Assembly: GCA_013002205.1 (NCBI GenBank)
Contig: JABDKN010000276.1
Span: forward strand, 1-36,371
DNA length: 36,371 nucleotides
Reading direction: 5' to 3'
DNA from: Granulosicoccus sp.
Lineage (GTDB): Bacteria > Pseudomonadota > Gammaproteobacteria > Granulosicoccales > Granulosicoccaceae
Part shown: piece by piece, positions 7,536-13,514 of the stretch
Position numbering within the stretch: position 1 is the first letter of the stretch
Layout: each line of letters begins with the position of its first letter
Program-made: the position numbers and the translations under genes
Notes under the pieces: generated by a model
What the model was told of the DNA's origin: nothing
Database searches by the model: none
What the model saw: only the letters and a program-made list of their open reading frames with translations

Positions 7536-8486
7536 ATGTGTGTCGTATGTGGTTGTCATGAAAACACTGAAGGCCATGCCCGGGTAGATGCATCGACCGG
7601 CGACCTGCACTTCGGCACGGGCGCTGCCAGGGTATCTGTCCCGGGCATTAGTCAGTCCCGTGCCATCAGGCTTGAAGCCGACGTACTGGGTGAAAACGCC
7701 AGGCTGGCAGCGCAGAACCGGGCGCACTTCGCGGCTCATGGCGTCACTGCCTACGATCTGGTGTCGAGCCCCGGTTCCGGCAAGACCACCCTGCTGTGTT
7801 CGACCATTGCGGCACTGAAGAGGCGTGTACCGGCTCTGCCCCTGGCGGTCATCGAGGGTGACCAGCAGACAAGCCTCGATGCAGACCGGATTCGCCGTGC
7901 GGGCGCTGATGCCATCCAGGTCAATACCGGCAAGGGCTGCCATCTGGATGCACAAATGGTCGGTGCCGCCTTTTCTCGCCTGGCCTTGCATGCTGGTGGT
8001 CATGGTCATGGTCATGGTCATGGTCATGGTCATGCACATGCACATGCACATGACGTTGAGCAGCCGTATGTGCTGCCGCGGGCCGCTGCTCAAAAGATTG
8101 ACCAGAATGCTGCACATGTGGTCAGCGGCACTGGAATCGGTGCGTTGTTACTTGTCGAGAACGTAGGCAACCTGGTCTGTCCAGCCCTATGGGATCTGGG
8201 CGAAGCGGCGAAGATCGTGATCCTGTCAGTCACGGAGGGTGACGACAAACCGCAGAAATACCCGGACATGTTCGCAGCCGCTGACCTGCTCGTGATCAAC
8301 AAGATCGATCTGCTGCCCTATGTCGATTTCGATGTCGAGAGATGCATCGAGAACGCGCGGCGTGTAAACCCGATGATCGAGGTCAGACGCGTATCGGCAA
8401 CCAGTGGGGAAGGGATCGATGGCTGGCTTGACTGGCTGCTTCGCGTGAGCGAAAAACCTGCGCGTGCTCTGTCAGCATCCAGTTGA
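7536..8486 (+). CDS. hypB: Hydrogenase nickel incorporation GTPase HypB with internal His-rich insertion
   Basis: MCVVCGC N-terminal metal motif; [12 protein letters not shown]-loop; [47 protein letters not shown]. Internal (GH)6(AH)3 tract. Confidence 0.95.
7998..8051 (+). repeat. In-frame 6-bp tandem repeat (GGTCAT x6, GCACAT x3) encoding the HypB His-rich tract
   Basis: Read directly: ggtcat repeated 6 times then gcacat repeated 3 times, 54 bp. Confidence 0.95.
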
Positions 8487-12376: not shown

Positions 12377-12874
12377 ATGACTTCCCCTGACATCAATCGT
12401 CGAACCTTCCTGATTGGCGCCGGACTCGGCAGCGCTGCACTGCTGACAGGATCGTTCAACTTCATGTCGCCGGTGCGCGCGCAGAGTTCACTCCCGGCAA
12501 CCCGATCGATGCGCGGCGGCAGTAACAACTACAGGCCCAATGCACCACTGGTTGACAACCTGGGTACCGGGTTTCTGGTTCACGGTACGGTGCGCCGGGC
12601 CGGTGCCGGGGAACCTCTGGCCAACCTGCGTATCCAGATATGGGCGGCAACCGCAAGAGGTGGCGAACGCGAACCGAGTAATCACGGCAGTGTCCTGACC
12701 GCCTCTGACGGATCATTCCAGCTCGAGATGTCGCAGATCGTGCCCAATTTCGGCCAGCCGCATGCACACCTTGCCTATGACGATGGCGATTTCGAGACGG
12801 TATTCCTGCGCCCGGTCATGAGCAGCAGAAGCGACACCAGCGTCCAGGCTCATTTCGTGCTGGCAGCGGCCTGA
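12377..12874 (+). CDS. Tat-exported intradiol-dioxygenase-fold (transthyretin-like) protein, function unknown
   Basis: Tat signal NRRTFLIGAGLGSAALLTG...VRAQSS; domain GTVRRAGAGEPLANLRIQIWAATARGG...TASDGSFQLE...QPHAHLAYDDGDFETVFLRP resembles the intradiol dioxygenase beta-fold. Confidence 0.75.
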   Translation: MTSPDINRRTFLIGAGLGSAALLTGSFNFMSPVRAQSSLPATRSMRGGSNNYRPNAPLVDNLGTGFLVHGTVRRAGAGEPLANLRIQIWAATARGGEREPSNHGSVLTASDGSFQLEMSQIVPNFGQPHAHLAYDDGDFETVFLRPVMSSRSDTSVQAHFVLAAA

Positions 12875-12881
12875 ATTTCCC

Positions 12882-13514
12882 TTGCCCGATCTGCAAGGAC
12901 CGTTGCGACGGCGACTCCTCCCGATTGCGGCCTGGATGGTCGTGGCAGCCCTGGTCGCTGCCCCGGTACTGATTGCAGCCACGAGTCCGTTGCTGGCCAG
13001 CCGTGATGCGGCCTACATCATTGGCGGCATGGCCGGAGTCCTGGCATTGGCGTTGTTTTTCATGCAGCCGCTGCTGGCAGCAGGCTACCTGCCGGGCATC
13101 GCGTTGACCCGTGAACGGCGATGGCACCGCGTGCTCGGTGCCGGGCTCGTGATCCTGGTGTTGATGCATGTGGGCGGGCTGTATATAGCCAGTCCCCCGG
13201 ACATGACGGATGCGCTGCTGCTGGTTGCACCCACCCCGTTCTCGGTTTACGGTGTGATCGGTTTCTGGGGAGTGGTGGCAACCGCCGTGTTTGTCGCTGC
13301 CCGGGCACGCTTGCGCATCAGGCCTGCTACCTGGAATATCTTCCATAACACGCTGGCGCTCATCATGGTATCGGCAAGCGTCACCCATGCGCTGATGATC
13401 GAGGGTGCAATGGGTGCCCGGTCCAAGTTGCTACTGTGTCTTTGCGTACTGGCCGCAACGGCCCTGGTGATCCTGCATTTACGCGTGCTGAAACCGTTAC
13501 TGCGAAATCGCTGA
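12882..13514 (+). CDS. Ferric-reductase-like transmembrane (heme b) protein
   Basis: Multi-TM ORF with two His pairs each spaced i/i+14 (WHRVLGAGLVILVLMH; FHNTLALIMVSASVTH), as in the FRD/YedZ/NOX membrane domain. TTG start at 12882, 7 bp after the previous gene. Confidence 0.75.
   Translation: MPDLQGPLRRRLLPIAAWMVVAALVAAPVLIAATSPLLASRDAAYIIGGMAGVLALALFFMQPLLAAGYLPGIALTRERRWHRVLGAGLVILVLMHVGGLYIASPPDMTDALLLVAPTPFSVYGVIGFWGVVATAVFVAARARLRIRPATWNIFHNTLALIMVSASVTHALMIEGAMGARSKLLLCLCVLAATALVILHLRVLKPLLRNR

Follow-up and report, generated by a model that had tools for sequence, protein, structure and literature searches.

What does an exported protein with the fold of a ring-cleaving dioxygenase do when it is encoded next to a predicted heme-binding membrane protein? 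This question is raised by two adjacent genes of Granulosicoccus sp., located in a stretch of 36,371 nucleotides (contig JABDKN010000276.1) that is called here the window. The existing annotation of the pair says only "twin-arginine translocation pathway signal" and "ferric reductase-like", and our literature search found no description of the gene 1/gene 2 pair in the open literature. A preceding reading made from the letters alone (the sequence-only reading) had proposed that the pair copies the MsrPQ architecture with a different soluble fold. The first gene and its export signal are located as follows:

12377 to 12874, + strand: gene 1, encoding a Tat-exported protein of 165 aa with an intradiol-dioxygenase fold (ORF, AF2, Foldseek, hhalign)
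12377 to 12481, + strand: Tat signal region of gene 1 (NRRTFLIG ... VRAQ), cleavage point approximate (TIGR01409; R8/R9)

The ORF of gene 1 is present and opens with the Tat signal that had been ascribed to it, as TIGR01409 scored above its cut-off (17.0 vs. 16.7 bits); the twin-arginine residues R8 and R9 are 99% conserved. The match to the intradiol dioxygenase family PF00775 is weak, 20.3 bits being under the curated cut-off of 27.3, which places gene 1 outside the family by score. The AF2 model built from 101 sequences shows a core mostly above pLDDT 90, and the Foldseek search of this model against the PDB returned intradiol dioxygenases nearly alone among the matches listed (best E 6.2e-7), with moderate TM-scores of about 0.5-0.6. 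The alignment of the gene 1 profile with intradiol enzymes from related bacteria by hhalign gave a probability of 97 and E 6e-11. The modelling, Foldseek and hhalign results agree on the intradiol-dioxygenase-like fold suspected in the sequence-only reading, which was to fall if the model showed no such fold, and the closest solved folds to the modelled gene 1 are those of the intradiol dioxygenases. The molybdopterin oxidoreductase domain (PF00174 / NF003767) was searched for in gene 1 and gave no match.

Since the fold is that of iron enzymes with two His and two Tyr ligands, the positions corresponding to these ligands are of particular interest:

12665 to 12667, + strand: codon of E97, which takes the position held in intradiol dioxygenases by the first Fe-ligating Tyr (alignment, hhalign)
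12749 to 12751, + strand: codon of F125, which by its position alone probably corresponds to the second Fe-ligating Tyr (that Tyr meets a gap in the alignment)
12761 to 12769, + strand: HxH motif (H129, H131), kept candidate metal ligands (invariant; aligned to the intradiol HxH)

In the hhalign alignment, W89 pairs with the Trp of the IWQ motif of intradiol enzymes, E97 with the first Fe-ligating Tyr and H129xH131 with the HxH, and the second Fe-ligating Tyr falls in a gap. Judging by position, F125 is probably the counterpart of this second Tyr, and Q127 would lie near the place of the catalytic Arg. Conservation was counted over 127 distinct homologues. Both H129 and H131, corresponding to the two His ligands of the PF00775 enzymes, are present in 127/127, F125 is Phe in 127/127, and H103 is His in 125/127. 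Position 97 bears Glu in 126 homologues and Asp in the remaining one, i.e., a carboxylate in every homologue. The pair of Fe-ligating Tyr that marks the intradiol dioxygenases is thus missing across the 127 homologues, in line with the by-eye observation that gene 1 keeps the HxH and loses both Tyr; the exchange of the first Tyr for a carboxylate had been overlooked. The retention of a carboxylate even where Glu is changed points to a 2-His-1-carboxylate metal site, which we consider probable for gene 1 (H129, H131 and E97, with the proximity of E97 to the HxH taken from the alignment only). With both Fe-tyrosinate ligands replaced, a ring-cleaving dioxygenase activity is improbable for gene 1, just as had been supposed. 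Sites of the 2-His-1-carboxylate type bind Fe(II), and many oxygenases possessing them require an outside electron source, whereas the Fe(III)-tyrosinate intradiol enzymes require none. This suggests that the gene 1 site would need electrons from outside, and such a need would explain why gene 1, unlike the classical Tat-type intradiol enzymes of related bacteria, is tied to a membrane protein able to deliver them.

The features of this membrane protein are the following:

12882 to 13514, + strand: gene 2, encoding a six-helix ferric-reductase-domain (FRD) protein, of bis-heme b type by its ligands, with no FAD/NAD domain (PF01794, AF2)
13125 to 13169, + strand: helix 3 with the predicted heme ligands H82 and H96 (HX13H; invariant, 88 rows)
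13182 to 13238, + strand: periplasmic loop, residues 101-119, the most conserved part of gene 2 and a candidate docking face for gene 1 (mean information)
13344 to 13388, + strand: helix 5 with the predicted heme ligands H155 and H169 (HX13H; invariant, 88 rows)

The 210-aa product of gene 2 matches PF01794 with 35.1 bits (cut-off 28), which assigns it to the FRD superfamily, and its AF2 model consists of six long helices with a mean pLDDT of 95. The pairs H82/H96 and H155/H169, invariant in the 88 aligned rows, reproduce the two-heme pattern of this superfamily. Foldseek placed the membrane parts of NOX5, cytochrome b561, STEAP and SpNOX on top, all with weak E-values. When a FAD/NAD(P)H domain was sought within the 210 aa, PF01794 proved to be the sole domain match, and no NCBIfam model matched gene 2, the MsrQ equivalog NF003831 included. 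The ORF coordinates, the two His pairs and the lack of a FAD/NAD domain given for gene 2 in the sequence-only reading therefore stand, but its start codon is uncertain: by eye, no ribosome-binding site is obvious ahead of TTG 12882, AAGGA precedes TTG 12903, and either may serve as the start. The mean information reaches 3.5 bits in the loop 101-119 vs. 1.6-2.2 bits in the cytoplasmic parts, so that the conserved loop positions lie mainly on the periplasmic side, and the basic residues are mostly found in or at the predicted cytoplasmic parts. Such a conservation peak is to be expected if a dedicated periplasmic partner docks at this loop.

Some relatives carry altered copies. In G023 (L130:2030-3103), gene 2 is broken near residue 155 by about 1.2 kb of DNA that includes an IS605-type TnpB/OrfB gene (PF07282, PF01385). 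In-frame stops were reported within the matched stretches at loci L149, L153 and L118, namely a TGA in gene 1 of two relatives and a TAA in gene 2 of one relative; start-site artefacts or decay are both possible.

How strictly the two genes belong together was surveyed at several taxonomic levels, as the sequence-only reading had advised. Among 48 genomes of Granulosicoccaceae, the family of the window, gene 1 was found in 37 and gene 2 in the same 37; the 38th gene 1 match, outside this family, scored a weak 22.5 bits. When the contigs of one public genome set were scanned, 319 stretches encoding gene 1 relatives were revealed, the best 80 of which belong mostly to Rhodobacterales, Hyphomicrobiales and Granulosicoccaceae. 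At 134 of the 136 gene 1 loci fetched (some genomes being counted twice), gene 2 lies directly downstream on the same strand, and at the other two the contig ends soon after gene 1. In 385 evenly drawn Alphaproteobacteria, gene 1 scored above 250 bits in 11 genomes and gene 2 above 235 bits in the same 11, always adjacent to each other, with the next-best scores being as low as 23 bits for gene 1 and 34 bits for gene 2. A phylum sample yielded 19 genomes besides that of the window, and gene 2 stood beside gene 1 in 19/19. Furthermore, the pairwise distances of the gene 1 and gene 2 proteins correlate (r 0.70 vs. at most 0.10 in permutations), to which shared descent contributes. Homologues of gene 1 lacking the membrane partner, which would have spoken against the proposed pairing, were sought in the 136 loci, and only the contig-end cases turned up. 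The pair is an obligate two-gene unit.

Five weak gene 1 matches (17-23 bits) were considered as partner-free homologues and rejected, as they are classical Tat-type dioxygenases with the Tyr motifs. Two relatives, G044 and G001, have two gene 1 matches each.

The surroundings of the pair are not conserved. No third conserved gene was found around it in 80 loci, the largest real neighbour clusters being scattered LysR and ABC-type genes in at most 9/80. The hydrogenase operon adjacent to the pair in the window had been remarked upon earlier; however, a search for HypD/HypE beside the other copies of the pair (flanks of 1.5-6 kb) found none, and we rejected the hydrogenase link. With no third gene conserved and HypD/HypE next to no other copy searched, the hydrogenase neighbourhood appears accidental and local to the genome of the window. 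This hydrogenase maturation operon, upstream of the pair, includes a HypB-like gene (7536-8486) whose product bears an extended His-Gly/His-Ala run (HGHGHGHG...HAHAHAH) that probably serves to store nickel.

Two clades, with support of 100/100, make up the gene 1 tree, one reading IWAATxxGGER, to which gene 1 of the window belongs, and the other IWAHTTEGHER. Granulosicoccaceae are placed among Alphaproteobacteria in both, and the well-supported branches force at least two changes (bootstrap not fully converged). The pattern agrees with lateral transfer, by which the family probably gained the pair on two or more occasions. As to the deeper origin, five short Tat-type intradiol dioxygenases of related bacteria (L181, L182, L183, L184 and L185) keep both Tyr ligands, and their PSMR stretch resembles SMRGG of gene 1. 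These enzymes are possible ancestors of gene 1.

A hint as to the role of the pair came from its promoter region in alphaproteobacteria, its main host group. Counts of spaced tetramers upstream of gene 1 revealed an enrichment of TCAC-N5/6-(T)GTG, refined to TCACR-N4-YGTG and lying some 75 to 160 bases ahead of the start codon (e.g., at L055, L068 and L103). The refined motif is present in 48/70 alphaproteobacterial gene 1 upstreams vs. 11/588 upstreams of other genes at the same loci, several of the 11 being divergent neighbours that share the site of the pair; the shuffled expectation upstream of gene 1 is 0.24. Among 25 genomes fetched separately, 13 have TCAC-N6-GTG. A weight matrix for the cell-envelope regulator CenR was built from 31 Rhodobacter sphaeroides CenR sites (PMC9275681 Table 1), and its consensus, TCACGAAATTGTGAT, is the same as the motif found beforehand without those sites. 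The mean best matrix score upstream of gene 1 was 10.1 vs. 5.4 for random stretches and 5.5 for the reversed matrix. Downstream of the motif, -10-like boxes (TANNNT) cluster at +43, +48 and +68, a phasing compatible with an activator. It was a literature search with the motif that pointed to CenR: this regulator binds AGTCAC-N6-GTGACT upstream of srlA in Sinorhizobium meliloti, where srlA is required for salt and peroxide tolerance (PMC9561847). The published CenR targets include tolQ, surA, dsbC, msrA and rpoH1 (PMC9275681).

The likeness of the alphaproteobacterial pair to the CenR regulon (PMC9275681, PMC9561847) thus lies in an upstream site that matches the CenR consensus and precedes phased -10-like boxes; the differences are that the pair was not seen in the published regulon table (PMC9275681) and that the family of the window is devoid of the site (0/31 upstreams), gene 1 of the window itself having no CenR-type site and a matrix score at background. 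These data suggest that the pair is a new CenR target in alphaproteobacteria, where CenR probably activates it. Under such probable control, the job of the pair is probably envelope maintenance or periplasmic redox protection rather than aromatic catabolism. The CenR-type site of the alphaproteobacterial relatives, pointing to envelope maintenance or stress, had been overlooked in the sequence-only reading. Boxes of the FNR, Irr, LexA and copper types showed no clear enrichment in 99 gene 1 upstreams, and Fur-like boxes matched in 2/99. A whole-genome pattern search for the motif gave a mild excess over the reversed control, with sites beside unrelated genes; it was abandoned as a route to the regulator as it gave no name, and CenR was named via the published sites. 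Two related genomes (L238 and L245, at about 1501) have in common a TCACGAAANCGTGA site flanked by genes for a short-chain dehydrogenase and a substrate-binding protein, possibly a further target of the same regulator.

Taken together, the results lead us to favour, with modest confidence, an MsrPQ-like and probably quinol-fed envelope redox system with a different catalytic fold, in which gene 2 would feed electrons to the rebuilt gene 1 site and which CenR probably activates in alphaproteobacteria. In this scheme, whose metal, docking, electron donor and direction, and substrate we infer, gene 2 would be an inner-membrane bis-heme b conduit whose electrons come either from quinol or from a flavin reductase of the cytosol, the latter being considered because gene 2 has no FAD/NAD domain of its own. 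Gene 2 would deliver the electrons at its conserved periplasmic face to gene 1, its dedicated Tat-exported partner, folded with the Fe(III)-tyrosinate site rebuilt into a probable 2-His-1-carboxylate one (H129, H131, E97). Reduction of the metal site by gene 2 would then enable gene 1 to act as a reductase or an oxygenase on an envelope substrate, and activation by CenR in alphaproteobacteria would serve envelope maintenance or periplasmic redox protection. A narrower version, which we put forward tentatively as one possibility, is that gene 1 is a quinol-driven periplasmic 2-His-1-carboxylate metalloenzyme that arose on the intradiol-dioxygenase fold, where Fe(II) chemistry dependent on outside electrons replaces the Fe(III)-tyrosinate one and an FRD heme protein, as the source of these electrons, takes the place of a Rieske or flavin reductase. 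In that case, the pair would constitute a novel type of oxygenase or reductase, coupled to the membrane and belonging to the CenR envelope response.

It seems doubtful that gene 1 is instead a non-catalytic periplasmic binder or carrier of iron or copper, with gene 2 as a metalloreductase of the presented metal, as in ferric/cupric reductase systems. The FRD superfamily does include ferric reductases and STEAP (PMC3591440), gene 2 has weak Foldseek matches to STEAP and NOX, and the HxH of gene 1 together with the conserved M45, M118, M148 and H103 could bind copper or iron. However, no uptake, receptor or metal-resistance gene is conserved near the pair, none of the tested Irr, FNR and copper-type boxes is enriched and the Fur-like ones are as rare as noted above, and gene 1 has an enzyme fold with the replaced ligands at the catalytic site.

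Still less probable is that gene 1 binds no metal and serves gene 2 as a structural partner, a beta-sandwich of the carboxypeptidase-regulatory-like or DUF4198-like type by which gene 2 is stabilised or sensed. Although CarboxypepD_reg and DUF4198 also score on some family members, and MRGGSNNY, an invariant stretch specific to the gene 1 family, could be an interface, the HxH and the carboxylate are invariant across two deep clades, and Tat export fits a protein that folds around its cofactor in the cytoplasm. Finally, a residual intradiol-like oxygenase whose altered iron site, kept reduced by gene 2, would still act on phenolic or catechol-type compounds is hardly to be expected: the fold, the HxH, the partial PF00775 match and the solved ligand mutants of protocatechuate dioxygenase, including Y408E (PDB entries among the Foldseek matches listed), speak for it, but gene 1 departs from the intradiol enzymes at both Tyr ligands and at the Arg and Gln positions, conserved catabolic genes are absent beside the pair, and the same bacteria have separate classical Tat-exported intradiol enzymes.

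The pair is thus a discrete, widespread and uncharacterised two-gene system, represented at over 300 loci of a single public genome set. Its existence suggests that MsrP is not the only exported partner of FRD heme proteins, and gene 1 provides a natural example of how an iron-tyrosinate site was converted into what is probably a 2-His-1-carboxylate site. The tie to a defined envelope regulator makes the function of the pair directly testable in tractable roseobacters, Paracoccus or rhizobia.

Among known systems, the intradiol dioxygenases (PF00775), especially the short Tat-exported ones such as L184, share with gene 1 the fold, the IW motif, the HxH and the Tat signal. Gene 1 differs from them in that both Tyr are replaced, the catalytic Arg and Gln positions are changed, the protein is shorter, and its pairing with a membrane heme protein is obligate; in other words, it has the intradiol fold yet fails the defining ligand test of intradiol dioxygenases. 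Gene 2 resembles the FRD superfamily (NOX, FRE, STEAP, YedZ/MsrQ) in having PF01794, six helices and two HX13H pairs; it differs in lacking a dehydrogenase domain, i.e., the FAD and NAD(P)H binding domain of full-length NOX/FRE reductases, and in having a dedicated exported partner of a kind that we did not find described in the literature. A further close parallel is MsrPQ (MsrP NF003767 + MsrQ NF003831), where a Tat-exported soluble subunit is likewise encoded adjacent to a six-helix FRD heme protein without a FAD/NAD domain. The soluble subunit of our pair has the intradiol fold instead of the molybdopterin oxidoreductase fold, and gene 2 gives no match to the MsrQ model; the genome of the window encodes a true MsrPQ elsewhere, its MsrQ scoring 180 bits on NF003831 beside a strongly matching MsrP. 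The initial idea of an MsrPQ-like architecture built around a different soluble fold thus holds for this two-gene unit of a Tat subunit and an FRD protein, which, by analogy, would work like MsrPQ but is not MsrPQ.
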